Below, piece by piece: positions 3,851 to 57,892 of a DNA stretch of 64,000 bases; position 1 is the first letter of the stretch; each line of letters starts with the position of its first letter. The DNA comes from Apium graveolens (lineage: Eukaryota > Streptophyta > Magnoliopsida > Apiales > Apiaceae). Where the stretch lies: NCBI RefSeq assembly GCF_009905375.1, contig NC_133647.1, positions 168,500,275 to 168,564,274 on the forward strand, read 5' to 3'. The position numbers and the translations under genes were made by a program. The notes beneath the pieces were generated by a model. The model had not been told where the DNA came from. It was given only the letters and a program-made list of their open reading frames with translations, and ran no database searches.

Positions 3851-5196
3851 TGAAAGACATATGTTATAGCCTATTTGTTTATTCGAGGATTTAACTCAAC
3901 TCAAATAAGAATGTAATAAGTAAATAGTGGATCTATCGTCAGAGAGATCTCACAGAGTAACATATGTCAAAGGATTAAGTAACATTGTTCATCTACAGAC
4001 TTGATGACTTAATTCACTGGAAGAAGCTCAAGAAATTGATCAAGCCTCAGTGATATAAATCAAGATTGTGGATTTAATCAAGTGACAGAGATCTCGTCAG
4101 GGTATCAATTATTTACAAGAATTTAGTCTGAAGAAAATCAAGAGTATCAAGGTCAAGGCATGAAGAAACGTCACGAAAGTTAGTCACTCATGAACCAGAC
4201 AGTACATCGAGTGTCAACATTGAAGTGGTGGAATTGATTCATATATTTTAGTGATTTTCAGAAGATATACAGAAGAATGGATGCTGCTCAAGATTAGTAT
4301 TAATTCTCTATTAATTAATTAAGTCATATAATTTAATTAAGAAAATAAATTATATCTGTAAAGATTAATTTATTTGATTAATTGAATTAATTGATTAATT
4401 AATTCTTAATTAATATTAAGAATTTTCAGAATTTAAATTGGTTTAAAAATCTGTTTTAATTCAACAAGACAACTGATTGTATTAGTATGACAATCGGTAT
4501 GACAATCAATAGTCATACCGAAAGTCATGCTAATTCAAAAGGATTTTCTTACCAGAATTATTATAGGATTTAAATCTATTTATTTTCAGCAAAAACAATC
4601 TGATTGTCCTACCGAAAGTCTTGTTAGTTCATTCTGATTGTCTTGCTAGTTCTAAAAGATAGTCCTACCGAAAGTTTTGCTGAGCCAAAGAGATTGTCAT
4701 GCCAGTTCATTTTCATTCGGTTGGTTGATAAAAGAAGCAGAAGCTGAACATTCATTTTAATCATACAGAACACAGCATTGAATATTCAACAGCAGAACAC
4801 AGAACAAAAGAAACCTGCAGAGAAATTATTGCAAATTCACAGATCATTTATTTCTAGTATTTATTGTTAAATCCAATCCACTAGAAATACTTTTCTTGTT
4901 CTTGTGTAACTATCTAGCGGATCGAAATCCCTAGAACTTAATCTCAAATCGCTTTTAGCATTTGATCTTTTTATTGCAAAAATAGAAAAAGTTCATGTCG
5001 AATTTATTCTAGATTTGTAATAATTGATTTGAGATTAATCCCTTGTAAACGATACCGTTGTTGTAACACCTTTCAAGTTTAATAATAATTTTATTTAACT
5101 TGAATTTTGTTTCACCTTTTTTATTCCGCATTTTATTCGATTAAACGGTATTGTTTGTATTAAACCCCCCTTTTACAAACATATTGAGACCTAACA
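3851..5196 (+). repeat. Sirevirus 5' LTR
   Basis: 1346 bp with TG...CA ends, the same length as its partner at 15654-16999. It contains a cluster of GACAATCGG / CCGAAAGTC inverted motifs at about 4484-4720, related to the hairpins at 11250-11567. Confidence 0.93.
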
Positions 5197-15653: not shown

Positions 15654-16999
15654 TGAAAGGCATATGTTATAGCCTATTTGTTTATTCGAGGATTTAACTC
15701 AACTCAAATAAGAATGTAATAAGTAAATAGTGGATCTATCGTCGGAGAGATCTCACAGAGTAACATATGTCAAAGTATTAAGTAACATTGTTCATCTACA
15801 GACTTGATGACTTAATTCACTGGAAGAAGCTCAAGAAATTGATCAAGCCTCAGTGATATAAATCAAGATTGTGGATTTAATCAAGTGACAGAGATCTCGT
15901 CAGGGTATCAATTATTTACAAGAATTTAGTCTGAAGAAAATCAAGAGTATCAAGGTCAAGGCATGAAGAAACGTCACGGAAGTTAGTCACTCATGAACCA
16001 GACAGTACATCGAGTGTCAACATTGAAGTGGTGGAATTGATTCATATATTTCAGTGATTTTCAGAAGATATACAGAAGAATGGATGATGCTCAAGATTAG
16101 TATTAATTCTCTATTAATTAATTAAGTCATATAATTTAATTAAGAAAATAAATTATATCTGCAAAGATTAATTTATTTGATTAATTGAATTAATTGATTA
16201 ATTAATTCTGAATTAATATTAAGAATTTTCAGAATTTAAATTGGTTTAAAAATCTGTTTTAATTTAAAAAGACAACTGATTGTATTAGTATGACAATCGG
16301 TATGACAATCAATAGTCATACCGAAAGTCATGCTAATTCAAAAGGATTGTCTTACCAGAATTATTATAGGATTTAAATCTATTTATTTTCAGCAAAAACA
16401 ATCTGATTGTCCTACCGAAAGTCTTGCTAGTTCATTCTGATTGTCTTGCTAGTTCTAAAAGATAGTCCTACCGAAAGTCTTGCTGAGCCAAAGAGATTGT
16501 CATGCCAGTTCATTTTCATTCGATTGGTTGATAAAAGAAGCAGAAGCTGAACATTCATTTTAATCATATAGAACACAACATTGAATATTCAACAGCAGAA
16601 CACAGAACAAAAGAAACCTGCAGAGAAATTATTGCAAATTCACAGATCATTTATTTCTAGTATTTATTGTTAAATCCAATCCACTAGAAATACTTTTCTT
16701 GTTCTTGTGTAACTATCTAGCGGATCGAAATCCCTAGAACTTAATCTCAAATCGCTTTTAGCATTTGATCTTTCTATTGCAAAAATAGAAAAAGTTCATG
16801 TCGAATTTATTCTAGATTTGTAATAATTAATTTGAGATTAATCCCTTATAAACGATACCGTTGTTGTAACACCTTTTAAGTTTAATAATAATTTTATTTA
16901 ACTTGAACTTTGTTTCACCTTTTTTATTCCGCATTTTATTCGATTAAACGGTATTGTTTGTATTCAACCCCCCTTCTACAAACATATTGAGACCTAACA
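15654..16999 (+). repeat. Sirevirus 3' LTR
   Basis: 1346 bp, collinear with 3851-5196 and no indels seen by eye. Followed by the target duplication TGGGA at 17000-17004, where LINE sequence resumes. Confidence 0.93.
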
Positions 17000-21984: not shown

Positions 21985-22075
21985 TCGTATCCAACAAAGC
22001 ATCAACCTTGCTAAAAAAAACATGAGAACATTAGATAAATAATAACGGTATAATAGAGATTGTTGAATTCAAGAA
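21985..22075 (-). pseudogene. Decayed membrane-protein gene copy, 3' part
   Basis: The plus strand here (ATCCAACAAAGCATCAACCT onward) aligns with 48753-48840 inside the intact minus-strand membrane-protein gene (ATCCAGTGAAGAACCAACCT). The match continues at 36016 after removal of the Tat element and one AAGAA. No open frame remains. Confidence 0.65.
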
Positions 22076-23320
22076 TGTTGACGGAGGAATCTGGTAACAA
22101 CAAAATTTGAGGTTTCTCGCCAGAATTAAGATCTATGATGGTGGTTCTTCGCCGGAAAATCAAGCGGTGTGTGGTGGTTGTGTGTTAATTGGTGGCTGAG
22201 ATTGATTAGGACAAGTGGTGGCTCCTTTTCAGCTCTCAACCTCTTACCCCCTCAATGTGCCTGCGTACCCTTTATATAGGGATCAAGCCTGACGTAGTTC
22301 TTGTGGAACAAGAAATCTAATGGGTTTAGATTTCTTATTCCTAGGCCCGGTAGAAGCCCATCCAAAGTCCGTCCTCCGCTAGCTTTAGGAATGTCCAACT
22401 ATGAGGCCCAACCGCGAAGGCCCAAGGCTCATCCGTAATCGCAGGACTTCACGGATAGTGCATCTCCCTGCGCGAGGATAACACTCTGCTACAGCTATCT
22501 CCCTTGATTTACGGACGCAGGTATAGTCACGGTTCACCCCAAGTGCCGGACGCATCCCTGTCCCCCGAATGAGGATAACCCACCAGATAACAGGACAGGT
22601 GATCCCAAGCTCTTGGGTGCAAAGTGCAGGATGACTCCAAAGTTCTCCAACGAGGACACCCGTTGAATACAAGAACAGAGTTCCCAAAGCACACACCAAT
22701 GTTAAACCCACATCCCCAACGAGGACACCCGTTGAATACAGGAGGAGGCCTTCAATCATCAGGCATACCCCTGGAGACCTTCAAGCTTTTCACGGACATC
22801 CCCCTCCTTGACCGTCTCAAGGAGGGAATTCTTCAAAGAGTACCTACAACAAATACGTTAGTAAAAACAATCTTCATTGCTCCTCTCCACGCAAGCTTTG
22901 TCCTGAAGTCACCATTGAAAGTGTATTGACCAAACACATGACGCATCTTAAGACCCTAGATGCGTCCTCATCTTTATAAATCCAGCATTGTTTCTTCAAC
23001 AACCGTTTCTTACAGCATGCTACAGCGACAAGACGCGTCCTAATAGGGACGGGCGCGTCCTCCAGCTTCCATTTCCAAAAGACCACATTTTCCAAGTACT
23101 TTCACCACGATTGACGCGTCCACAACGCTTAGGCTCGTCCTTCCCTAATCATGCACTCCCAATCTTCGCCATCACCAGACCATAAAACATCTTCTTAAGA
23201 CCCTGGGCGCGTCCTCATTGCCTGGACGCGTCCTTACATTTTATAATGCAAAACCGGTTTTGACTGTACTTAATCCACATTTGACCCGAGTCAATCTAAT
23301 GCCAAATTTTGGGCATAACA
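22076..23320 (-). repeat. Tat 3' LTR
   Basis: 1245 bp. On the minus strand a TATA-like CTATATAAAG lies near 22268-22277, supporting the orientation. The right third contains decamer pairs (for example 23205/23224), several of them decayed by C-to-T changes relative to the other LTR. Confidence 0.93.
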
Positions 23321-23336
23321 ACTACCCCCAAATTTC
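23321..23336 (-). other. Tat polypurine tract
   Basis: The plus strand reads ACTACCCCCAAATTTC; on the minus strand this is a purine-rich AAATTTGGGGGTAGT directly before the 3' LTR. This is the expected plus-strand primer. Confidence 0.8.
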
Positions 23337-24306
23337 ATTTACAGTTGAAAATAAAATTGGAATTTTTATTCAGAGACCACAAATAAAAATTTGCATAGGT
23401 CCGTGAGGACGCGTCCTATTTCCTGGACGCGTCAACTCTTCAGTCATTCAAGATCGACCGTTGTATAACAGCTATCTTGTACACGTCAGCCATCTTTTTC
23501 TATAAATATCTTCCCCTCCCACAATGTTACTTTACCTTTTCTCTCTCTCCAAAAACCGCCATTAACGCTGCTGCAAGAAGCTAAATCCGAAAATCCGACG
23601 AATCCACCGGCCATTTCCCGATTTATTTAGCTTAATCCAACCCTTAACTTACGAGGTACGTGAATCTTCTTTTATTTCTTCATTTGGTTGAGTAAATCGG
23701 CTTTAGTGAGCAAAAAACCGTTCATATTCCTCATGCTCTCATGAACTGTTCTTCACTTTTGTCGTGTATGTATGTGTGTATATAAAATAAATCTCCATAT
23801 TCTGCTCTTTTGATTCTTTAGTTACATGTTTTTAGGGTTTTATTATATTTTCCCCAAATTGCTAATAGTCGGTTAGAATTCCCATGTATTTCACTAATTT
23901 AGGACGCGTCATCCTCAAAGGGAGCGTCTCGTTTAAGACGTGTTTAAGTTGTTTTAACCAAAGGTCATATAGAGGCAGTTCCTTACTAGGACGCGTCATC
24001 GTAGTACGTCTCCTGCGATAGATTCTTAGGACGCGTCCTCATACGTTTCCAGTATCTTCCCATTTTTCTCTTCTATTCTTTTTTTTATGTGGACGCGTCC
24101 TCAAGTTTTTCTTCCTTCTTTTACAGCTGGAGAACGCGTCTTCTTCGTCACCTTTTCATCCATTCAAAGTTCTCAACAAACGCCTTGGGATTTACTCCCC
24201 ACACTTGATCTCTTTCAAATCTGATTTCCCTGAATTTCACAATACGAGTTCCTTCCTTGAAGCAGAAAGACGCGTCTTCGAGTCTCTCAAATCAAAGACT
24301 TCTATA

Positions 24307-25267
24307 ATGTCTGATTCCAGTTCCGATTATATGGATCACATCCCCATAAGTTCTAGAATGAAAAAGAAAGGATTCAAAGGAAAAAAAACTCCAATTCTCA
24401 ATGTTAGGGCTGCTATCGAAGATTGGACGAATGATGAAATTGTACCCACCAGCAGCCAACAACCTCTACGCATGATTACTTCAGATGAAGACGTGTCCCC
24501 TACTCAGGACGCGTCGGCTTCTCAGGACGCATCTTCTTCACAGAACGTGGCTCCTTCTCAGGACGCGTCCCCTCTCAGCGTAAGTGAGTTTGAAAAGAGG
24601 ATTCCTGATCCTGAAAAGTATCCCGTGTCTCCTCAAAAATCTGATCCACCTCTCGAACACTGGGAACCCTCAGATGTTGAAGTGGATTGTGACAGGACAA
24701 AGCTTGGTGCTCTAACTGAGGCAGAGAAAAATGCCCGAAGGAAAAAAGAAAGCAAACTAGCTTGTGTAGCCCTTGACTCCACTGTAACTAACTTGGAAAT
24801 TCAGTGGCACATGAAATACTACGACATGGAGGGCATCCGGGCGCGTCCTCTTCGTACAATAAGGCCACACATTTTCAACATTGGGAATCAAAGGATCCCT
24901 AGAATGGTGCTCACACCAAAACTGATCTCTCTAGGCGTGGGCGCGCCCCTGCACCCATACATCAAAAAGATTTTAAAATGGTATGACGTTGCCCCGGTTC
25001 AATTGTCTCCAAACTCGTACAAACTAGCATGGGCTCTGCACATCATGTACCACAATCTTGGACTGGGCGCGCCCTCCATGAAGGAATTTAGCTTCTTCTA
25101 CAGCATCAGAAAATCAATCCCTGGCTACCATTTCCTTATAGTCAATAAGTGGCTGAACAACAAGGGATTCAATGAAGGCAAGATCAGCCACGAGAAGGAT
25201 TGGAAGGAACCTTTCTTCTACGTCTATGACGTCAAGAGAACATGAGTTCGCTTCAACTTAGAACCAA
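24307..25267 (+). pseudogene. Tat antisense gene, exon 1 (Transposase_28-like)
   Basis: The first in-frame ATG is 24307 (MSDSSSDYMDH). The frame is open to TGA 25243-25245; coding character then continues in frame for about 20 nt to a plausible donor at 25268 (AAG/TAAGTG), so the TGA looks like a nonsense change. Residues about 60-90 hold the hexapeptide array (D-A-S every six residues). The C-terminal half (KLAWALHIMYHNLG, then FSFFYSIRKSIPGYHF and WKEPFFYV) resembles the domain catalogued as putative gypsy-type transposon (Transposase_28). Antisense ORFs are known in Tat elements; their role is unknown. Confidence 0.75.
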
Positions 25268-25383
25268 GTAAGTGATTTCCAAAACATGTCCTCATAGGCT
25301 TGATGCGTCCTTTACTCTGGACCCGTCCTCTTTTTTCCAAATTTCCCTTTTCCTTTAACAAGTCCTCATTTTTTCATCTTTAG

Positions 25384-25653
25384 ACAAGAGAGTTCAAAAG
25401 GAATTAACAGGAAAAAGAAAGAAGAGAGCAGATAAAGTACTCCAGTATGCTGGGAAACACTTCAACCTCAAAGACATGATCACAGAAGATAACCTCAAAC
25501 TGGTGGGCGCGTTATCTGCGCGGGTTGGCTCTGTCTGCAAGTTCTGTGAGTTTCATAATGGAAAACCTGTTCTCACAGCCTCCGAAAAAGCCAGGGGCTT
25601 TAGTGACGCAGAAGTAGTCGAGATTGACATCAGTAAGCAAATTGACTTAGAAC
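25384..25653 (+). pseudogene. Tat antisense gene, exon 2
   Basis: Bounded by an acceptor-like CATCTTTAG and a strong donor AAG/GTAAGTAT near 25653. It encodes a Lys-rich start, then AGKHFNLKDMITEDNLKLVG and a downstream acidic segment. Open throughout. It continues exon 1 of the antisense gene; splicing is inferred from the boundary sequences only. Confidence 0.6.
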
Positions 25654-26202
25654 AAGGTAAGTATATATGAGAGAGGACGCGTCATACTTATTGGATGCGT
25701 CCAAAGCTACAGAATTAGCTTCTCATTTTTAAAAGTACCAACTCACCGACATTTGTAGGATGCGTCATGTTTATTTGACGCGTCACGCGTATGTTTGTCT
25801 TTCCTTTTACACGCGAAACTTAATCTGATTTACGGGTGTTTCCTGCATATATATGTCTTTATTTTGGGCGCGCCTTAATTTCAGGGCACGTCTTCCCGTA
25901 ATATTTGTGACAGACATTGTTAGCATGTCACTCATGTTTTCCTCACAATCCTTATTATAGTCAATATGTCCTTCACTAGGACGCGTCGTATCTTTAGGAC
26001 GCGTCATAGTCACACATATATATGCATTTTTCATATCTTTGCATTCATTTTTCTTGACACATCTTCATGCATTTACATGTTTTTATATGCATTCTATTTA
26101 ACATTTGCACATTGACAATCTTTAAATTATGTTCTCGGCGCGTCCTACTATCAGGACGCGTCTACCTTATTCAACTAATATTTTTTCATGTTCATGTCGC
26201 AG

Positions 26203-27044
26203 ATATGGCTTCTCTCCCAAAAGGATTTGCTATTGGAGCTTCCAAGAAGCTGAGAGCCAGGAAACAGGCCCCTGTAAAGCGTGATCCAAAGGTTAAGACC
26301 CCCACTCCTGCTGTGACTCCTTCCCCTCCACCAAAAATAATTGACACCACTATGCTGGACATCCCGAAGAAGGAGGACGCGCCCACAAAGCGCCAAAAGA
26401 CACTGCCAGATGATCAATCTTTTGTTCTCCGATATCTGGGCGCGTCCTCAGCTGGCCATTTTACTGAAGATGAAGTCTGAGGCTGGACGTTCAGGACCGA
26501 GGAACAAACAGAAGAGGCCATGGTGAGGGCTGCAGCTGAGCTTTATTTGCACGCCAGACAAAGTGCCAACATGGCTTCTAGACTCAGTGCGCGTCATGCT
26601 ACCACTGACACTGCAACGAGCCAGGCTGAAGACAAGATCAAATCCTTAGAGAAGTACATCAATTGGCTTACCCAAGAAAAGGACGCCGAGATCAGGCACC
26701 TGCAAGAGGACAAGACGCGTCTTGAGGCGGAGAATGCTGTGTTGGAGGGTAATGTCTCCTCTATGGAGAAAATGATGAAGAGTTTTATCACACTAAATTC
26801 TACCATGCAGCTGGAGCTTGACACTCTAAACGATGACATACTGCATGGGTGGAAAGAGGAGAAAAAGTTACTCTATCAAAATGGCTTCGCAGCTGGGTTC
26901 GAGGAATGGTGCTCTGGGTTTATTGCAAATGACCCAGCATACACTTTTTCTAAGTTTGATGAGGACACCCAGAAATGGGTAAATGATTTTAGAATCAGAG
27001 CTGCGGACTCCATTAAAAGCAAGAGGGTTTTTCTAGGCTTGTAG
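26203..27044 (+). pseudogene. Tat antisense gene, last exon (coiled coil)
   Basis: Acceptor TGTCGCAG just before 26203, then MASLPKGFAIGASKKLRARK. The frame is broken by TGA 26478-26480 but continues in the same frame from 26481 through 26520 to TAG 27042-27044, and readable sequence carries on past that stop. The region after 26590 is a clear coiled coil (DKIKSLEKYINWLTQEKD..., about 26630-26840). D-I-P-K-K-E-D-A-P at 26358-26384 is encoded by a decamer pair. All visible stops could come from C-to-T changes. Confidence 0.65.
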
Positions 27045-28187
27045 GAAAGTGACGCGTCCCCGGCACCTTCTCCACTTAACGTTCAACCTCCTCCAACTGA
27101 CAACCAAGATAAGCCACAGGACGCACCCCCTGTCTAGGACGCGTCTTCCTTTTATTCATGCAACATTTATCAGAACTATCTTAAGGGTGCGGGCCCCTTT
27201 AAGCCTTGCAATTTATAATGATTATCTTCGAACTCCTTTAGCTTGCACTTTTTATGATATTTCTCTTTTATTACTTTTTATGCATATCATCTTACTTTCT
27301 TAATCTTGTTTTATCCTAGGATGAGGACGCGTTTTCATTAGAATTTTGTTGATATTCCCTCCACTATCATTTGTCAAGTAATTATTCTTAATAGGCGCGT
27401 CCCCTTTAGTTGGGTGCGCCCTTGAATCACTTGAATAGTATATACTTCACGAGCATGATATCATGCTGCACTTGTGTATTTAGATAAGGCACAAAGCAAG
27501 AGGGGGGCGCGTCCTAGTGCCTTGACGCGTCTACCATTTATTTTAAAGATACACTTAACTTTTCGTACTGGACGTGTCCTTTGTTAGAATATGTCTTTCT
27601 TTTTAGTTATGAAATGTCGTAATCAAAGAAACATAAAACTGAGGGAGCATCAACCAAGATAACTTGGGCGCGTCCTTGGAAATAATATGCGCCTTAGTTC
27701 CATTTTTACCTTAATTTTGTTGTTCCCTTTAACAACTGTTTCCATTAACATCTGTATAGAATTACCACTCAGGGCGCGTCCTATGATTAGGACGCGTCAT
27801 ACAACTAAGTAAATCAAAAAATAAACAGCCCTTTAGAAAATTTCAATTTTTTTTACTAATAATGCGCTCTGGTGTCAAAGGTGCACCAGTCCCACGGCTA
27901 CTATGCTCTGTGGGGAATTTAATCGAAAAAATGATCCTTCGACTAGTTCTAAGGTAAGTAGTATATGCACTACCCCCTAGCCTAGGAGGAATTTTATTGC
28001 TTCTAGTCTATAATTCGGGCATAGCCCTAAGTAGATAAAAAGACATGTAAGGGGCCAAAGCCGCGCCTTACTGATAATACTTCCAGAGATGTTGCGCGTT
28101 CTAAGCTCGCGGAACTAGTTTCCCTTCCATATCCTCAAGGTGATAAGTCCATTTCCACAAGATGGCTTTTATCTTGTATGGTCCTTC
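27045..28187. other. Tat 3' region between antisense gene and integrase
   Basis: Mostly non-coding, with decamer pairs at 27119, 27505 and 27772 and singles between. The part nearest the integrase may hold the end of pol on the minus strand (after a stop near 28188). No other gene is seen. Confidence 0.6.
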
Positions 28188-29519
28188 CTAATTAGCTCCA
28201 AACACTCCATGCTGGGGATTTTTCGTGTTTGGTATCACATTCCTGAGCACTAAATCCCCTACCTTTAGCAGCTGTCCCTTTACCTTCTTGTTATAATACC
28301 TTGCGGCACGTTGCTGATACGCCGCAAGCCTCAGCTGAGAATTCTCCCTTGTTTCTTCCAAGAGATCCAAATGAAGCCTTTGATTAACCTCTGCATCCTC
28401 CACTGTGTAACGATCTCTGCGAAGCGACCCCGAACCAACTTCCACGGGGACCATAGCTTCATAGCCGTAAGTCAACATAAACGGAGTTTCTCCTGTAGTA
28501 GATCGTGGAGTAGTGTTGTAGGACCACATCACTTTTAGGAGTTCTTCAGGCCAATTCCCTTTGCGCTCTTCCAGTTTGGTCTTAAGGGTGTGCTTTATTA
28601 TTTTATTCACAGCCTCTGTCTGTCCATTACTTTGAGGATGATAGACCACTGCAAACTCCTTCTTAATTTTCAGGTCCTCACATAATTGTCGTAATTCCCT
28701 ACTGTCGAACTGCTTCCCGTTGTCAGAGACAAGTTTGTAAGGAATACCAAACCTGCAAACAATGGAGTTAAAAACGAAATCTCTAATTTTCTTTGCCGTG
28801 ATAGTTGCCAATGGCATAGCCTCTGCCCACTTAGTAAAGTAGTCAACCGCGACCACCGCATACTTGACATCCCCTTTAGCCTTGGGCAACTCCCCAATAA
28901 GATCTATCCCCCACATGGAAAATGGCCACGGGCTTATCATAGACGTCAAGAGCGTTGCTGACATAGATGAGTAGTTTGTAAAGCGCTGGCAGCGATCGCA
29001 TGCCCTGACAAAATTTGCAGCATCCTCTTTCATTGTAGGCCAATAGTATCCTTGGCGCAAAACTTTCATTGCCAACGAGCTACCCCCCGAGTGATTGCCA
29101 TATATTCCTTCATGTACTTCCCTTAAGATATAATTTCCTTCCACTTCATCAACACATCTAAGCAGCGGTTGATTGAAGCCCCTCTTATACAAAATTTCAT
29201 CGTATACCACATACCTTGCAGCCTGGTAGCGGAGTCGCCGAGCCTTGAACTTATCCTCGGGGAGGGTTCCTTTTTGAATATAAGAGAGAATGGGTGTCAT
29301 CCATGTTTCCTTGGGCGCCTCATCTACTTGCATAATTTCTACCTCCGGGATACTAGGCCTCTCCTGGATCTCTAGGGGTATAGATCCCAGTAACACAGCT
29401 TCCTGCTGCGACCCCAATTTGGCCAGGGCATCCGCATTGCTATTTTTCCCCCGCGGTACACATTTCAGCTTAATTTCTCTGAACTTTTCAATCAGGCGTT
29501 GCGTGCATCTCAAATACAA
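28188..29519 (-). pseudogene. Tat second RNase H end and integrase
   Basis: Minus-strand frame starting inside the end of the second RNase H (PRGKNSNADALAKLGS) and continuing into a Ty3-type integrase. The zinc-binding H-H-C-C segment is clear (HEGIYGNHSGG...ACDRCQRF). The catalytic triad is complete: Asp in WGIDLIGELP, Asp in SDNGKQFDS and Glu in NGQTEAVNKII. The frame closes at a TAG near 28188, where the family normally continues, so the C-terminal tail is cut. The domain itself is unbroken, but the polyprotein upstream is not. Confidence 0.85.
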
Positions 29520-29634
29520 TTATGTCCACGGTCCTCGAGCTTGAAACCCCCCATTCACTTGATTTACCACCAGCTCCGAGTCACTCCTCGCGATTAAGTT
29601 CCGCACTCCCATTTCCAAAGCGATGTTTAGGCCA

Positions 29635-31149
29635 TTAATCAATTGCGCTCATCAGGTGATGGCCTTCTGGAGATACGACTACTATACCCGCACCTGCTCC
29701 CCCATTGTTAACTGCCCCATCCACATGCAAGATCCACCAGGGATGTGGAAATTCCTCCAAAGACTCCCCCGTATGAGGGGGACACAGCATCACCAAAGCT
29801 CTGTCATCAATGACATAGTCAAACTCCAACAAGAAATCGGCTAAGACTTGTCCTTTAATTGACGTCCGAGGCATATATTCCAAATCAAACTGTCCCAACT
29901 CCACAGCCCACTTCAACATTCTCCCCGATGATTTTGGTTTGTGAAGGACTTGCCGTAATGGGTATGTCGTACGGACTTCAATTCTACGGGCCTGAAAGTA
30001 TGGTCGTAATTTTCTTGATGCGAGGATCAGGGCATAAACCAATTTCTCTATGCTGGTGTAGCGAGTCTCAGCATCGTGCAACCGCTTGCTCACATAATAC
30101 ACCGGTGACTGCTGTCCATCTTCCTCTCTTACCAGAACAGCGCTGATTGAATACTCAGATACCGCAAGGTACAGTATTAGAGATTCTCCATCTAACGGTT
30201 TTGACAGCATGTGAGGGTTTCCCAATTGCTCCTTGATCTTTCTGAAAGCCTCTTCACATTCTGGTGTCCATACGAAGTCTTTCCCTGCCAACTTAATCAC
30301 CTTAAAGAATTCCTTGCATATGTCAGAAGATTTGGAAACAAATCGATTCAGCGCGGCGATCCTCCCAGTTAAACTTTGCACTTGTTTAATATTGGTAGGC
30401 AATTTCATATCCAACAATGCCTTGATCTTTACGGGGTTGGCCTCAATTCCCCAATGGTTGACGATGAACCCGAGAAACTTGCCCGACTCCACGCCGAACA
30501 CATACTTTTGTGGGTTCAATTTCATGCGAAACCTCCTTAGAATGTTAAACATTTCCATCAAGTGTTTGATATGGTCATTCGCCTCCTTGGATTTTACCAA
30601 CATATCATCCACATACACCTCTATGGTTCTCCCAATCTGGTTTTTGAACATCATATTCGCCAACCGCTGATAGATTGTGCCAGCATTAATCAATCCAAAC
30701 GGCATTCCTATGTAAAAGTATAGCCCCATGTCGGTGATGAAGGATATATGCTCTTGATCGGGACCATACATGGGGATCTAATTGTAACCCAAATATGCAT
30801 CCATGAAACTTAGCAAGGCATGCCCTGCCGTCGCGTCAACTAACTGATCAATTCGTGGGAGCGGGAAACTATCCTTTGGACATGCCTTGTTGAATCTGTG
30901 AAATCCACACACGTCCTCCACTTCTCGTTCGGCTTTTTTACGAGCACTAGATTTGCAAGCCATTCGGGGTAGTAAGATTCTTTGATTAGTCCCACCTCCA
31001 ACAATCGGTCTACTTCTTCTTTTAATGCTATCGCCTTTTCCCCACTCACTGGGCGACATTTTTAATGTATGCCCGTACAATTCGGAAAGATATTCAACCA
31101 GTGACACATTACTCCTGGGTCGATTCCCACCATGTCTGAATGACTCCAT
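29635..31149 (-). pseudogene. Tat RT, RNase H and start of second RNase H
   Basis: RT motifs run in order on the minus strand: the SFMDAYLGYN Asp segment, MPFGLINAGTIYQRL, and VYVDDMLVKS with the catalytic YVDD. The connection and first RNase H follow, then WILHVDGAVNNGGAG at the C-terminus, the opening of the second, archaeal-type RNase H that defines Tat elements. Breaks: a frameshift near 30890 inside the RT N-terminus, a TAG at about 30772-30777 within a conserved segment, and loss of frame at 29635 in the second RNase H. Not functional as it stands. Confidence 0.87.
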
Positions 31150-31826
31150 GCGAAGATATCGAGATTTGCAATCAAGAAGCGGGTAAGACTTTCCCTCATT
31201 TCATCACCTAACTGGGATCCCACTTTCAAAACCTTGCTTGGGTCATCTTTATCGACCGGAACAGATATTGTGTCTTCGGCCGGCCCCGTCTTCTCGGCGG
31301 GCATAGGGATCCTGGGATCCAAATCAAAATCAAAGTCACGGGGGTCCTCCACGCCCATTTTTTTATCCGAGGGCGCGTCCCCATGAGTGGGTGCATCTAC
31401 CTCAGGACAAGGCATGGTTTTGTGCAACGCAGGCATGGAGGGTGCGTCCTCTTTTTGAGGAGCATTAACCTCAATTCCATTTTTGCTCTTCAAGGGCGCG
31501 TCCTCTTTTTGAGGAGCATCCACCTTGAAGTTATTTTCGAGATTTTGCAAAATCTCACTTCTTGCTTCCAACTTTTCCCCGTTAACCTCCTTCTGCATGA
31601 TCTCTTCTATATGGTTCACCACAACTTCTTCCACACTACGGATCCTCGAAACATTCCCCAACTTCAAAACGGGGGGCCCGGTGGTATGGGTTTCTTCCTC
31701 CTCTGGGCCTTCTACGAAATAGTGGGCATGAACCTCTCCACTTGGTTTTGTATGAATATCTTTCGCACCCTCAAATAGAAGACCTTTTCCCTTGTATCTT
31801 CTCCTGCGAAATTCCTTAACAACCAT
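31062..31826 (-). pseudogene. Tat protease-RT linker with repeated DAP peptides
   Basis: Same minus-strand frame as gag and protease, separated by stops. The linker contains the repeats VDAPQKEDAPL, VNAPQKEDAPS and VDAPTHGDAPS, each with two (D/N)AP triplets spaced six residues apart. These are the decamer pairs at 31494/31512, 31440/31458 and 31371/31389 read as protein. The end leads into RT (IFAWSHSDMVGIDP). Function of the linker is unknown. Confidence 0.8.
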
Positions 31827-31850
31827 GTGATAGCAGTCGCGTGACTCATA

Positions 31851-32387
31851 TTACGACCCTCTCAGACTGCCTACTCCGTTAGGTGTGGAGAACTTTATCA
31901 TCAAGTGATGTATCGAGGCTATCACCCTGAACGACCTTAACCAAGGTCTGCCCACCAACACGTTGTGCGCAGAATCCTGATCCAGCACTTTGAAATCTAT
32001 CATTTGAGTGACAGACAAAGCCCCTTCCCCAAGTATGACGGGAAGCCTAACCGAGCCCATAACTCTCACTGCTTCTCCAGTAAAGCCATAGACGTGTGCA
32101 TCTTCAAAATACATGTCGTTGTCCGGGAAACCCAATTTTTTGTATGTGCTATAATACAGGATGTTCGCAGAGCTCCCGTTGTCCAAGAAGACCCGATGCA
32201 CGTTCATTGCCCCGATAAGCATAGTTGTTACCAGTGCATCGTTATGGGGATGATGTACCCATCTTGACTCTCGCTCCCTGAACGTAATATCAGCTGACTC
32301 CCCTTTGAATATTTTTGGAGGTCTATCTTCCAAACTATGAATATTGGTGAGTGGCGGGTGTAATGCTTCTCTTGCATTTCTTTCCAA
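31851..32387 (-). pseudogene. Tat aspartic protease
   Basis: Minus strand, about 178 residues. The active-site segment is FLDNGSSANILY near 32190, in the D-x-G-S-S form common in this lineage, followed by the hydrophobic strand and VLVGRPWLRSF. In full-length elements this is part of one polyprotein; here stops on both sides isolate it. Confidence 0.8.
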
Positions 32388-32537
32388 CGCCCGATTACTG
32401 TCACCGACAAAGGGGTGTCCTCCAAAAATTTCCCTGATACTACCAGCTCTTTGGAACTTAACCTCGACTGTCTTTTCAGCATTTTCTTCTCGCAGGGGCT
32501 GCCTTTCATCTTTCCCCTTGTCATCATTCCCCCTGCG

Positions 32538-33605
32538 TCATTTCACCTTGTCAATCCATTCTCCCAAGTATCCCGCCTTGATCAAATCTTTAATTTCATC
32601 TTTCAGGTGACGACACTCATGGGTGACATGACCGGTAGACTCATGGTAATCGCAATACTTCTTCTTATCTCTACTCTGCCATGAAGTCAGACAGTCTGGT
32701 TTCTTGAAGATTCCTCTATCCTTATTCACCTTGAAGATATGATCAATGGACGCTGCCAGTGGAGTGTAGTTGCTTACTCTTCTTTCATAGTTCGATGGTA
32801 GGCTCCATTCTCTCCGCGTGTTCACGGCGTTCACCCTATTAGGGCTTCTGGCATTCCGTCGATACTTCGGGCTCACGGATATATCTCTTCTCTTGGCTCG
32901 CCCTTTGGAGTTGTGGGTGTTATCATTCTTTTTTGTTTCCGCAAGCGACTGTTCAATTGCTTTAAATGATTCCGCATGCGCAAGTCCATCGGCTAACGAC
33001 ACAGGGTCCTTCCCCTGCAGGTGCTTCCAGAAATCTGTTCCCACACGCAGACCAGCTATAAGAAGTATCTTCAGTATTTCATCAGTTGCGCTCCTCACCA
33101 AAGTAGACTCTGCATTGAACCTTTTAAAGTATGAGGTCAAACTTTCCCCCTCTTTCTGTTTCACATTGGCCAGCGTGGTAACTAGAGGTGTATACTTCAC
33201 TGCAGCTTGAAACTGAGTTAGAAACAAGGTTTTCATCTGTTCCCAGGATGTAATCACACCTGGACCAAGTTTCTGGAGCCACTGCTGAGCGCCTTCTCTA
33301 AAGGTGGCCGCCAGGAGACGGTATCGAGCCAAATCAGGTACTTGATATACATCCATCTTAATGTTGAAACGACCCAGAAATTCCACAGGGTCAGAGTTCC
33401 CATAAAAACGCAAGTCATTGGTTGTGTTTCTGTATCCTGTCGGAAATTGTGCCTCCCTCACCACAGCAGCAAAAGGAGAAGGAGCTTGCGCAGTCGCCGT
33501 TACTCTTCCTCCTTCAAGATGGTTGAACAACCTCTTAAGATCGTTCACATTAAACGTCCCTACTCCAGGAATGGTTTGAACATTCGGTTGTTGGGGTTGC
33601 TCCAC
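32538..33605 (-). pseudogene. Tat Gag, core and zinc-binding part
   Basis: 355 residues on the minus strand. It shows a retrotransposon-gag capsid core (YRLLAATFREGAQQWLQ, then the FLTQFQAAVKYTP and SYFKRFNAE segments) and a C-terminal zinc-like motif C-x2-H-x4-H-x4-C-x-H (CDYHESTGHVTHECRH). The start at 33605 is the first Met after a stop; the true N-terminus lies upstream in other frames. Confidence 0.85.
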
Positions 33606-33679
33606 GACTTGTTGCGGTTCCCCTTGATTACCCCCGGGTGTAGCGGTGGATCTCGTCGCCCCTCGCCCTGAGGCTGCGG

Positions 33680-34710
33680 CTACGGCTGCGATATGTTACC
33701 ATCTTGATTTTGAACATTATCCCGCACGTGGGGTTCCTCCGGGCCGCATCGCGGTACTTCCTCATTATTCTGTAACCTTTCTTGAATTCGCACGCCACCC
33801 CGGTCATGAGGACGCGTCCTGGAACCATTGCCCGTAGCACTGTGGGAAGCTACAGGAACAATGACAAGAGCTTCTTCAGTGGAGAGTGCGCCATCTCTCC
33901 TATCATTGTAGGGTGCCCTTCCATGTTGGTATCCCATCCTTCCTCGCCCATTCTTTTGATAGCCTCGGTAATAATTCCCAAACTTTCCTCGCGGAGGGGC
34001 ACGCTCGTGTTCGCGGTGCCGCACCCTATCATCCCTTTGGTATGTAGGGGGCACACGCACTGTGTCACGGGGCCTCGCTTGTCCAATGTTTCCTTCCTTT
34101 TGCCATTCTACCAGCAACATTCTCAGATCGTCATCCTCCAACCTTATGTCGAGCCTTCTTTTTAAGGTTGAAAAGTTTCTTCCTTCCTCATCTTGATTCT
34201 GAGTATTTTTCGCACGAGACGCTCGTCCATCGTACGCCCAGACCTATGGGGGTGTGGCACAACCTGATTGACAAGACGAGGCCTTTCTCTATCGTCCGTG
34301 TCCTCATCAACAAGCTCCACAATAGGTTCTATATCATCAGAATATTCCAAGCGCCGTGGAGTGTTTCGTTGGTTTTCTCCGCTGTCCTGAGCATCTCCTT
34401 CAACTACAGGCACCTTCCCCACGGCGTGGCAGCGACGAGGAAAATGAAGACCTCTCCTTGTCCTGTGACGCTCTACCGTATTCAGCCTTGAGTGAAAACT
34501 ATTAAGAGTATCCCCCATGCGGTATAACCGCTCCAAGATATCCGCGTTACTGATGAGAACTGGAGGTGTCCCTCCCACATCCGCAGCTCTTGGTGGATCT
34601 GCCATATTTCTGGGCACGTAGTGTTCGTGATGAGCGTAGCCTCCCTCGCCTTCTCCTTCAAATCTGCTGTCACTTCCATCATTAGAACTTCCATCACGAT
34701 TGTAAGACAT
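33680..34710 (-). pseudogene. Tat Gag N-terminal extension, frameshifted
   Basis: Two frames, 34710-34162 and 34141-33680. The first Met is 55 nt inside the 5' LTR, the expected start. The product is charged and low-complexity (SNDGSDSRFEGEGEGG, then Arg/Gly-rich RGKFGNYYRGYQ). One frame change near 34150 and another before 33605 separate it from the Gag core. Confidence 0.65.
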
Positions 34711-34744
34711 CTTTTCCTCCCAAGATTACGATCTTAATCAGCAG

Positions 34745-34765
34745 CCCCTCCTTCTAGCACCAATT
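34745..34765 (-). other. Tat primer-binding region
   Basis: On the minus strand the bases directly inside the 5' LTR read TTGGTGCTAGAAGGAGGGG. The position is right for a primer-binding site; I did not assign the tRNA. Confidence 0.55.
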
Positions 34766-36010
34766 TGTTGACGGAGGAATCTGGTAACAACAAAGTTTGA
34801 GTTTTCTCGCCGGAATTAAGATCTATGATGGTGGTTCTTCGCCGGAAAATCAAGCGGTGTGTGGTGGTTGTGTGTTAATTGGTGGCTGAGATTGATTAGG
34901 GCAAGTGGTGGCTCCTTTTCAGCTCTCAACCTCTTACCCCCTCAATGTGCTTACGTACCCTTTATATAGGGATCAAGCCTGACGTAGTTCTTGTGGAATA
35001 AGAAATCTAATGGGCTTAGATTTCTTATTCCTAGGCCCGGTAGAAGCCCATCCAAAGTTCGTCCTCCGCTAGCTTTAGGAATGTCCAACTATGAGGCTCA
35101 ACCGCGAAGGCCCAAGGCTCATCCGTAATCGCAGGACTTCACGGATAGTGCATCTCCCTGCGCAAGGATAACACTCCGCTACAACTATCTTCCTTGATTT
35201 ACGGACGTAGGTATAACCACGGTTCACCCCAAGTGCCGGACGCATCCCTGTCCCCCGAATGAGGATAACCCACCAGATAACAGGACAGGCGATCCCAAAC
35301 TCTTGGGTGCAAAGTGCAGGATGACTCTAAAGTTCTCCAACGAGGACACCCGTTGAATACAAGAACAGAGTTCCCAAAGCACACACCAATGTTAATCCCG
35401 CATCCCTAACGAGGACACCCGTTGAATACATGAGGAGGCCTTCAATCATCAGGCATACCCCTGGAGGCCTTCAAGTTTTTCACGGACATCCCCCTCCTTG
35501 ACCGTCTCAAGGAGGGAATTCTTCAAAGAGTACCTGCAACAAATACGTTAGTAAAAACAATCTCCATTGCTCCTCTCCACGCAAGTTTTGTCCTGAAGTC
35601 ACCATTGAAAGTGTATTGACCAAATACAGGACGCGTCTTAAGATCCTGGACGCGTCCTTACCTTTATAAAGCCAACATTGTTTCTTCAACAACCGTTTCT
35701 TACAGCATGCCACAGCGATAAGACGCGTCCTAATAGGGACGGGCGCGTCCTCCAGCTTCCATTGCCAAAAGACCACATTTGCCAATTAATTTCATCACGG
35801 TTGACGCGTCCACAACGCTTAGGCGCGCCCTTCCCTAATCATGCACTCCCAAATTTCGCCATCATCAGACTATAAAACATCTTCTTAAGACCCTGGGCGC
35901 GTCCTTTGTACCTGAACGCGTCCTTACCTTTTACATTGCAATACCAGTTTTGACTGTACTTAATTCGCATTTGACCCGAGTCAATCCAATGTCAAATTTT
36001 GGGCATAACA
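34766..36010 (-). repeat. Tat 5' LTR
   Basis: 1245 bp, partner of 22076-23320. Near 35629-35940 it keeps better matches to GGACGCGTCC than the partner LTR does (for example the pair at 35629/35648, whose partner is degraded to ATG and GAT forms). Followed by AAGAA. Confidence 0.93.
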
Positions 36011-36015
36011 AAGAA

Positions 36016-50381: not shown

Positions 50382-50692
50382 TGTTAGAAAATTAGGATTT
50401 TAGAGCTTAATTTAATTATGTTCTTGATGTTAATCCTAAAATCTAATGATTGGAAATTGTTCAATGATATTTGAACTTAAATTTTCATGTATGGTTTTAA
50501 GAATTTTCTTAATGAAATCCATATGAAATGAGAGATGAAAGTAGCTTGGAAAAGCTTGGAAAATCTGAGAATGTTTGTCCCACATTGAAATAAATAAAGG
50601 GGGTTGTGTGCTTTAAATGGTATTACCCACATGAGTAGTATACAACTACTAAGGTGTGTGATGGTCCATTGTGTTGTTGTGTGCTTCACGCG

Positions 50693-50758
50693 CGCACACA
50701 CACACACACTCGCGCCCCGCCCCGCCCCGCCCCGCACCGCACCGCACCGCACCGGGTC
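50693..50758 (+). repeat. GC-rich pentamer microsatellite in the Copia LTR
   Basis: (CA)n leads into CCCCG repeats, then CACCG repeats. The 3' LTR copy (about 56743-56836) is longer and adds a GGACC series; this explains most of the 33-bp LTR length difference. Confidence 0.9.
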
Positions 50759-50942
50759 GAAGGGCGATTTGGGCGAATGTCTCGGCGTCTCGCGTACGCG
50801 AGGCGACCTGAGCGAGGATTTTATTTATTTGAGAATTATTTTAATTCGAATTTATTTATCGGTGATTGGATTATTGGGCTGAGTTCTGAAATAGGCTAAG
50901 TAGTCTAAATATATTGAACCTGCAAATAATCTGATCTGTAAC

Positions 50943-51100
50943 AAGTTCTGATATAAGAATCAGAACTTAAGAACTGATGAATAAAATCAGAACTTAACAA
51001 GTTCTGATATTAGAATCAGAACTTAAGTACTGATGAGTCGAATCAGAACTTAAGTACTGATGAGTCGAATCAGAACTTAACTTAAGTTCTGATAATAATG
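50943..51100 (+). repeat. Inverted and tandem repeats in the Copia LTR
   Basis: AAGTTCTGAT (50943-50952) pairs perfectly with ATCAGAACTT (50959-50968). The pattern recurs at about 50999-51024, and ATCAGAACTTAAG plus TACTGATGAGTCGA repeats in tandem to about 51080. The same block is in the 3' LTR (57029-57180). Confidence 0.85.
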
Positions 51101-51801
51101 TGGGTGTTAATGTGAAAAGCTGTTACAAATAATTTAAATTCAAAAGCTGTTCAGTTTTGATTTTTTCATTTATGAATTCAAAATCTGATCAGTTTTGATT
51201 TTTTTTTTCATTAATGGAGCAGTTTAATTCAGACATTAAGTGTGTGGACAGTTTCATTTTTCCTCTCCTATAAATAGAGGCTAAACTGAATGAATACAAC
51301 ACACTACATTCTCATCTCTTCTCTTCAACCTCTCTGCATTTCTCTCCCATAAGTCCTGAAGTGCTGATATTTTCCGGCGACTGAGGTGCTGGTCGAAGTG
51401 GAGGTTTTGTTGCTGCTGTTAACATAAACTCCGAGCTGTTTTATCCTGGTGGAGATATTGCGCACATCCCAAACGCAGCAGGTAGGGGGCAATAATCTCT
51501 TCAAGAGCAGCCAGGACTTCGAGCAAGGCCTGGTGACTCAGCTGTGATTATTTTCTTGGCATTTTGTATCTGTAAACCTTTATTTCAGTCACTGTTGAAA
51601 GCTATGGTTTCGGGTACATCTTTCTTTCTCTCTTCGTTATTTCAGTTACTGATTTTGTTTACCTGCATGTTTTGTTTTGTTAACTGTGGTCTTGGCCTAA
51701 ACTTGTTAAATTCTTTATACACTTGCCTCTATGTTGCTATACTTGTTAGTGAGTTTCTCAACATCCTTGAAGAGATTATTGGTTATTTAGAATTTAGCAT
51801 A

Positions 51802-56437: not shown

Positions 56438-57852
56438 TGTTAGAAAATTAGGATTTTAGAGCTTAATTTAATTATGTTCTTGATGTTAATCCTAAAATCT
56501 AATGATTGGAAATTGTTCAATGATATTTGAACTTAAATTTTCATGTATGGTTTTAAGAATTTTCTTAATGAAATCCATATGAAATGAGGGATGAAAGTAG
56601 CTTGGAAAAGCTTGGAAAATCTGAGAATGTTTGTCCCACATTGAAATAAATAAAGGGGGTTGTGTGCTTTAAATGGTATTACCCACATGAGTAGTATACA
56701 ACTACTAAGGTGTGTGATGGTCCATTATGTTGTTGTGTGCTTCACACACACACACACACACACACACGCGCCCCGCCCCGCCCCGCCACGCACCGCACCG
56801 CACCGCACCGCACCGGACCGGACCGGACCGGAACGGGTCAGGTCGAAGGGCGATTTGGGCGAATGTCTCGGCGTCTCGCGTACGCGAGGCGACCTGGGCG
56901 AGGATTTTATTTATTTGAGAATTATTTTAATTCGAATTTATTTATCGGTGATTGGATTATTGGGCTGGGTTCTGAAATAGGCTAAGTAGTCTAAATATAT
57001 TGAACCTGCAAATAATCTGATCTGTAACAAGTTCTGATATAAGAATCAGAACTTAAGAACTGATGAATAAAATCAGAACTTAACAAGTTCTGATATAAGA
57101 ATCAGAACTTAAGTACTGATGAGTCGAATCAGAACTTAAATACTGATGAGTCGAATCAGAACTTAACTTAAGTTCTGATAATAATGTGGGTGTTAATGTG
57201 AAAAGCTGTTACAAATAATTTAAATTCAAAAGCTGTTCAGTTTTGATTTTTTCATTTATGAATTCAAAATCTGATCAGTTTTGATTTATTTTTTTTTCAT
57301 TAATGGAGCAGTTTAATTCAGACATTAAGTGTGTGGACAGTTTCATTTTTCCTCTCCTATAAATAGAGGCTAAACTGAATGAATACAACACACTACATTC
57401 TCATCTCTTCTCTTCAACCTCTCTGCATTTCTCTCCCATAAGTCCTGAAGTGCTGATATTTTCCGGCGACTGAGGTGCTGGTCGAAGTGGAGGTTTTGTT
57501 GCTGCTGTTAACATAAACTCCGAGCTGTTTTATCCTGGTGGAGATATTGCGCACATCCCAAACGCAACAGGTAGGGGGCAATAATCTCTTCAAGAGCAGC
57601 CTGGACTTCGAGCAAGGCCTGGTGACTCAGTTGTGATTATTTTCTTGGCATTTTGTATCTGTAAACCTTTATTTCAGTCACTGTTGAAAGCTATGGTTTC
57701 GGGTACATCTTTCTTTCTCTCTTCGTTATTTCAGTTACTGATTTTGTTTACCTGCATGTTTTGTTTTGTTAACTGTGGTCTTGGCCTAAACTTGTTAAAT
57801 TCTTTATACACTTGCCTCTATGTTGCTATACTTGTTAGTGAGTTTCTCAACA
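56438..57852 (+). repeat. Copia 3' LTR
   Basis: 1415 bp, nearly identical to the 5' LTR apart from the microsatellite. TATA box CTATAAATAG at about 57357. Confidence 0.95.
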
Positions 57853-57892
57853 GTCCGTAACCAATGTAAGTTCGGGACAAATATGACAAATA

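Follow-up and report, generated by a model that had tools for sequence, protein, structure and literature searches.

The closest described systems are the VANC/VANDAL systems of Arabidopsis, in which anti-silencing is sequence-specific, and the Retand long terminal repeat (LTR) retrotransposons. VANDAL elements encode VANC proteins (DUF1985/DUF287) and carry non-palindromic motifs in one orientation, with links to tandem repeats (PMC5735166, PMC10398659, in the parts covered here); within their transposable element (TE) family these motifs are dense in introns, intergenic and terminal regions and rare elsewhere, according to the covered parts of the first account (PMC5735166). In Retand elements the aRH domain is located between RNase H (RH) and integrase (INT), as far as the portion covered goes (PMC6317226). 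The covered parts of a further study report an antisense open reading frame (ORF) with a Transposase_28 domain (TRP28, PF04195) in 97% of recently active Retand clusters, placed between pol and the 3' LTR in a long POL-3'LTR region with tandem repeats; they predict TRP28 to bind DNA and mention HTLV-1 HBZ, an antisense-coded regulator of an LTR element as is proposed here (PMC11963269). The subject of this work is a 64,000-nucleotide stretch of the Apium graveolens (celery) genome (contig NC_133647.1, positions 168,500,275 to 168,564,274 of the forward strand, hereafter the window) and a 13.9-kb Tat/Retand-type Ty3/gypsy element on its minus strand (22076-36010), which carries an antisense TRP28 gene and many copies of a paired palindrome. 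The best overall explanation, toward which we lean, is that the palindromes form a selected array of dimer sites read by the antisense protein that the element itself encodes, with VANC-like action. Antisense TRP28 genes of Retand elements are already known, as are VANC systems; a selected paired palindrome array tied to TRP28 in an LTR retrotransposon was not seen in the searches made of open-licence PMC literature, which brought up no paper on this motif, and the covered parts of the Retand description mention neither a target motif nor a dispersed palindrome, and no fixed spacing of pairs (PMC11963269).

The element contains 27 exact copies of the octamer GACGCGTC (starts 23032-35803), the number given in an earlier note on this DNA, and none was found in the rest of the 64-kb window; shuffled sequence gave a mean of 0.05 copies and never more than 1. 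With up to one mismatch allowed the count rises to 56 (starts 22549-35915, all within the element), and the 29 one-base variants are indeed at least as many as the exact octamers. All 41 decamers matching GGACGCGTCC at 9/10 or better are inside the element, as are 50 of the 51 window sites matching GGRCGCGYCC (R/Y symmetry) at the same threshold, while first-order Markov simulation of the element produced a mean of 0.59 and a maximum of 4 such sites in 300 runs. The carrier is a single Tat element, as the note had said, but the range of 23205..35940 assigned to it was too narrow. Site density per kb is highest in intron 3 of the antisense gene (12.8) and in U3, the first 400 bp of the 3' LTR (12.5), followed by intron 1 (8.5), the antisense 3' flank (7.6), exon 2 (4.4) and gag (0.5), with no site in exon 3 or in the INT to reverse transcriptase (RT) region. 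The sole 9/10 motif-like site beyond the element, at position 1216, is close to the relic of a related LTR (579-1077, 71-74% identical to the element's LTR).

Spacings among the 56 octamers were 18 bp ten times, 19 bp four times and 20 bp twice, and the 14 spacings of 18 or 19 bp compare with a mean of 0.89 and a maximum of 6 in 5000 jitters. A fixed 18/19-bp pairing, noticed earlier, is thus borne out, both in these jitters and genome-wide (below), but the tally of at least 15 pairs comes down to 14, and a partner at 18 or 19 bp exists for only about half of the octamers, not for most (27 of 56; 13 of the 27 exact ones). Across the family the spacer begins with T in 61% of the 18-bp and 79% of the 19-bp pairs, in keeping with the earlier description, whereas the A proposed for its second base is no rule (31% and 35%). 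The five-unit 18-bp tandem array that had been noticed was found at 24490-24578 (5.0 copies, 73% matches) in coding exon 2; it is the sole array reported at the sites, the others being dispersed, and the pairs are therefore not parts of one longer ordinary tandem repeat.

The genome searched comprises 3.33 Gb in 4849 contigs. The exact pair with an N8 spacer occurs at 19 places, its reversed control at none; pairs with gaps of 1-31 gave 619 matches on one strand and 549 on the other, the reversed control 2 and 1. In a hand tally of the 100 matches listed, where some places count on both strands, the spacing is 18 bp in 46, 19 in 18, 36 in 17, 40 in 14, 20 and 30 in two each, and 37 in one; those at 40 bp seem to stem from one or two homologous places within intron 1. 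Twenty-one sequences (the window and further copies) hold 148 pairs at 18 bp and 68 at 19 bp, with 420 of 690 sites having a partner 17-20 bp away and 270 having none.

Copies L005-L024 were chosen for motif pairs in intron 1 or exon 2, for which reason intron 3 serves as an unselected test; the single exon-2 sites are likewise free of this choice, and L055 and L056 were chosen by protein. Intron 3 (340-574 bp) was aligned with MAFFT in 18 of the 21 sequences (17 copies and the window; three had no anchor), sites being taken at 9/10 or better from each sequence in turn. Identity was 0.71-0.94 in motif columns (at least 0.86 save at positions 3 and 10), 0.59 in spacers and 0.65 in the background. 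Since MAFFT may be drawn to the motif, an alignment-free count anchored at the splice donor served as a check: all 18 introns have a site about 18-20 bp behind the donor (8/10, position 10 loosened) and a second one 18 bp on in 16 introns and 19 bp on in two, while shuffled introns had the first donor site in 0.6% and both sites in 0 of 9000 trials. The introns also retain variants peculiar to individual sites, the first donor site ending in A in 16 of 18 and 9 of 13 first acceptor sites having G at position 3, so that these seem to be orthologous sites of some age, not products of recent copying. Within exon 2, synonymous conservation was 0.815 at the three single sites (162 cases) versus 0.612 elsewhere (3026 cases); GCG codons of the motif (3 codons) were retained in 43 of 46 cases, CpG codons outside it (4 codons) in 15 of 71. 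The CGT codon at the first exon-2 site was retained in only 3 of 16, being mostly CGC in other copies, a change that preserves the motif. Orthologous sites were thus retained over a synonymous divergence of about 1, unlike spacers and flanks, and it is evident from the aligned sequences that the sites were kept by selection while the surrounding DNA diverged. Of the two origins offered in the earlier note, a selected two-site protein-binding motif is the one that gains support here, and we consider it very probable that the palindromes are selected protein-binding sites. Bases of motif CpGs are more often identical in intron 3 (0.886, n=3215 cells) than those of other CpGs (0.699, n=6309), a resistance that fits selection on binding as well as low methylation and proves neither mechanism.

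The other origin, a small mobile or template-switch-amplified unit, fared poorly, the site losses being decay in place or gaps mostly larger than 28 bp. Among 986 site-to-sequence comparisons in intron 3 the site was kept (8/10 or better) in 656, decayed in place in 158 and fell in a gap in 172. Clean 28-bp insertions were sought as presence/absence gaps in intron 3, and none appeared among the 167 gap lengths listed, of which 145 were 55-99 bp and 11 were 18-19 bp. It could still be supposed that the sites are functionless leftovers, passively derived from template-switch amplification or an 18-bp minisatellite. The 18-bp tandem repeat in exon 2 speaks for this, as do the common 36-bp spacing among the genome-wide matches listed and a resemblance between the spacers of separate pairs within a copy that slightly exceeds that of shuffled spacers (2.92 versus 2.25 of 8 bases, 499 comparisons). 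Such functionless leftovers we regard as very unlikely, considering that orthologous sites are retained with their own variants while the spacers diverge, that motif CpGs resist decay and that site-sized gaps are few. For the exon-2 array an origin from an 18-bp minisatellite is plausible, and the motif itself may first have come from one.

Two further readings concern what the selection may act on. The pair geometry, two palindromes 18 bp apart, would permit an RNA or extruded-DNA hairpin with a 10-bp stem and an 8-base loop; its arms show no covariation (pairing 0.864 against 0.867 for shuffled partners, with 805 of 1000 shuffles as high, in 206 distinct pairs), and together with the partnerless sites and the conserved single exon sites this makes such a structure highly improbable. 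Retention of the motif for the peptides DAS, DAP or GAP is suggested by the exon frame, which often reads D-A-[SP] or G-A-P, yet exons contain only a minority of the 50 sites, those in introns and LTRs stay unexplained, several reading frames are used and synonymous positions are conserved as well, which leaves this reading next to no credit. As a separate observation, motif pairs in the pol linker (31371-31503, with sites at 31371, 31440 and 31494) encode DAP-x3-DAP in frame on the minus strand, so that the palindrome is translated in genes of both strands; no site matching GGRCGCGYCC at 9/10 or better was found within 28188-31061 of the pol region.

The antisense gene is on the plus strand between INT and the 3' LTR, opposite in strand to gag, RT, RH and INT, in the position known for Retand TRP28 ORFs. 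Joins of its exons 2, 3 and 4 match the celery protein P0037 (92% identity across 36% of the query). A Pfam scan of 25 aligned members at E up to 1 found PF04195 in 22 and neither DUF1985 nor DUF287. The median ratio of nonsynonymous to synonymous substitution (dN/dS), with stop-containing codons excluded and every comparison made against the window copy, was 0.08 for exon 2 (n=19) and exon 3 (n=12), 0.09 for the exon 4 part 26481-27041 (n=15) and 0.07 for the integrase (n=17); these ratios are rough, dS being near or above 1 and close to saturation. The values nevertheless show, at the level of codons, purifying selection on the antisense gene, whose frame in many other copies is without stops over the part searched.

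Sites and protein go together in the TRP28 families of the genome. Two copies found by a TRP28 protein query contain 18 and 23 sites in 3 kb (9/10 or better), whereas among 30 loci of other TRP28 families, taken by best PF04195 score, 28 have no site and two have one at this threshold (0-6 at 8/10); the rarity of the motif was gauged in the window and at these 30 loci, the genome-wide counts being of pairs. On contig C1, which is wholly covered by the listed pairs, all six matches to the clade of the window copy have a listed pair within about 1.2 kb (three of the six are also among the fetched copies), against none of seven other-family matches. A tree of 34 TRP28 rows groups the window copy with P0001, P0037 and the two copies chosen by protein, adjoining P0002 and P0003, and the other-family rows of sufficient length for placement, 3 of 30, lie together at a distance.

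The shape of the site fits reading by a symmetric dimer. The pair logo (147 distinct 18-bp and 68 19-bp pairs from the 21 sequences) has positions 2, 4-7 and 9 nearly fixed, A or G at position 3, T or C at position 8 and position 10 free, a profile in part built in, with sites taken at 8/10 or better. The base preceding the first site, which played no part in choosing the sites, is A or T in 94% of the 18-bp and 97% of the 19-bp pairs, and GGRCGCGYCC is best read as the 12-bp palindrome WGGRCGCGYCCW; exon sites are predominantly of the G/C form GGGCGCGCCC. We propose that WGGRCGCGYCCW would be a dimer-binding site present in tens of copies per element and often paired at 18/19 bp, in an array spanning LTR U3, antisense promoter, introns, exons and 3' flank; that the antisense protein, with its TRP28 domain and coiled-coil-like C part, may bind these sites as a dimer and cooperatively at pairs, the fixed spacing arising from contact of neighbouring dimers; and that binding would mark the element as self and relieve silencing or drive its own transcription, in the manner of VANC with VANDAL transposons. 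The antisense protein is taken as the candidate reader, an assignment we hold with slight preference, because the sites track the TRP28 clade, because palindromy goes with a coiled-coil-like C part, and because of the predicted DNA binding of TRP28 (PMC11963269) and the likeness to VANC (PMC5735166), as far as the covered parts of these papers go. Anti-silencing as the outcome of binding is argued from analogy and is put forward tentatively. A plain autoregulatory or transactivating role at LTR and antisense promoter would explain the intron and exon sites less well.

Several points, besides the partly built-in logo, pull the other way. The PF04195 score of the window copy is below the curated cut-off of 26.2 bits (E 3.8e-5 and 24.3 bits in exon 2; E 9.4e-5 and 23 bits at residues 301-363 of ORF 24022-25242), and its antisense frame is interrupted by stops, the exon-2 frame at 25243-25245. 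Two AlphaFold2 models of TRP28 are of low confidence (mean predicted local distance difference test score 42 and 54) and Foldseek found no structural match for them under E 0.8; because they lack a credible match, DNA binding by TRP28 rests on the published prediction, seen in the covered parts of its source (PMC11963269). In the listed part of contig C2, one of two clade matches (at 4.03 Mb) is without a listed pair. A second couple of protein and motif was sought in the other TRP28 families and none was found, several having tandem arrays of about 92 bp and the rest nothing evident in 3 kb. Candidate family-specific motifs at L026, L035, L041, L044 and L049 were rejected, the dispersed 8-mers being mostly such arrays, which are near the TRP28 gene and have partly similar units. 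At another locus, L034 (G000:C4, 273349068-273352223), the 9-base ATCCGTTGA recurs every 16-33 bp with differing spacers at 811-1204, with an inverted copy near the array and a few outlying ones; this is possibly the target array of another TRP28 family.

A host transcription factor, for instance of the CAMTA type (core ACGCGT or CGCGT), might read the sites instead and place the element under host stress or cell-cycle control. CAMTA proteins have a CGCG-box core, a host promoter element, and the ACGCGT core here resembles it; sites also cluster in U3 and at the antisense promoter. Many others belong to introns, to coding exons or to the 3' flank; ACGCGT is absent from GGGCGCGCCC, the form of most exon sites; and no more than one site was found in the remaining window sequence or at any of the 30 other-family loci. 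For CAMTA we know of no dense site array in the introns and exons of a TE, and on this evidence a host reader is unlikely. For HTLV-1 HBZ, too, a dispersed array of self-encoded sites is not known to us. Reading by the element's own antisense protein has its nearest parallel in VANDAL, with which this locus shares a dense short motif in one TE family (judged from the window, the 30 other-family loci and the genome-wide pairs), extending through non-coding DNA, a TE-encoded protein under selection (dN/dS 0.08-0.09) and links to tandem repeats. It differs in being an LTR retrotransposon with an antisense TRP28 protein and a CpG-rich palindrome paired at 18/19 bp, for which binding is inferred. 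The protein is of a different family and not a VANC member, only possibly alike in action. That Retand antisense TRP28 represents an independently evolved VANC-like system of self-recognition and anti-silencing in LTR retrotransposons, with a paired, CpG-rich palindrome as target, conserved over several plant species of one TRP28 clade and reaching into coding exons, is a conjecture we find attractive and still doubtful. The conserved, family-specific palindrome array around the antisense gene is a concrete candidate target for the TRP28 protein; if the proposal is true, sequence-specific self-targeting of TEs arose in retrotransposons besides DNA transposons, and tandem arrays in other Retand families may be targets as well.

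Indirect evidence from other species suggests that the site is old and common to more than one of them. Proteins of TRP28 relatives were scanned for translations of the motif in three frames, [GD]A[SP], GR[AV] and [WRG][AT]RP. The N-terminal parts of 24 relatives contain 37 motif-coded peptides against 7.0 in shuffles, with 2 against 7.0 for reversed peptides, and in the stretch past exon 2 such a peptide was found in 9 of 21 relatives against 0.40 shuffled, with 0 for reversed; the test was conceived after viewing the tails of these proteins. Many of them are closely related to one another, so that the shuffles overstate its strength. We take the stretch past exon 2 to read into the intron in these relatives, except in P0037, one of the 21, which is spliced there. 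Motif-coded peptides in the N-terminal part are also present in P0028, the relative from Heracleum sosnowskyi. DNA of TRP28 relatives was sought in viral and genome contigs and none was confirmed. P0022 is recorded for the fungus Rhizophagus clarus, but its TRP28 protein is plant-like and probably reflects plant contamination.

The features of the element are collected in Table 1. The LTRs are 1,245 bp long (94.6% identity between the 3' LTR and 34766-36011 in self-BLAST) and the element is flanked by a 5-bp target-site duplication, AAGAA, at 22071-22075 and 36011-36015, which together with the strand arrangement given above agrees with Retand. A weak Pfam match to RVT_3 (E 0.023) precedes INT, where an aRH domain would be expected in a Retand element. 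The motif pair in front of the antisense gene, we infer, is part of its promoter.

Table 1. Features of the Retand-type element and its antisense gene (window coordinates)
Feature	Coordinates	Strand	Remarks
3' LTR (TG...CA)	22076..23320	-	motif sites 22548, 23031, 23051, 23112, 23205, 23224
18-bp motif pair	23407..23434	.	about 65 bp upstream of TATA-like box CTATAAATA at 23500
Putative intron 1	23655..24126	+	motif sites 23902, 23989, 24029, 24091; limits by eye, splice-like signals
Exon 2, from first ATG	24307..25267	+	TRP28 domain; tandem array; single sites 24839, 24939, 25065
Exon 3	25384..25656	+	joins as in P0037; no motif site
Intron 3	25657..26202	+	pairs 25675/25693, 25758/25776, 25979/25997, 26136/26154
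Exon 4	26203..27044	+	coiled-coil-like by weak Pfam matches only; in-frame stops in window copy
3' flank of antisense gene	27132..28187	+	8 sites; pairs 27505/27523, 27772/27790
pol region (INT, RH, RT)	28188..32537	-	Pfam, ORFs
gag region	32538..34725	-	Pfam Retrotrans_gag in 32538-33695; single motif site 33810
5' LTR	34766..36010	-	nine motif sites within 35238-35914; pairs at 19 and 20 bp

Elsewhere in the window, direct repeats of 1,346 bp at 3851-5196 and 15654-16999 (98.3% identical) are probably the LTRs of a different young element. LTR-like repeats of about 1.4 kb at 50382-51766 and 56438-57856 are 96.7% identical; both contain a tract rich in CGCAC as well as a 27/56-bp tandem array.

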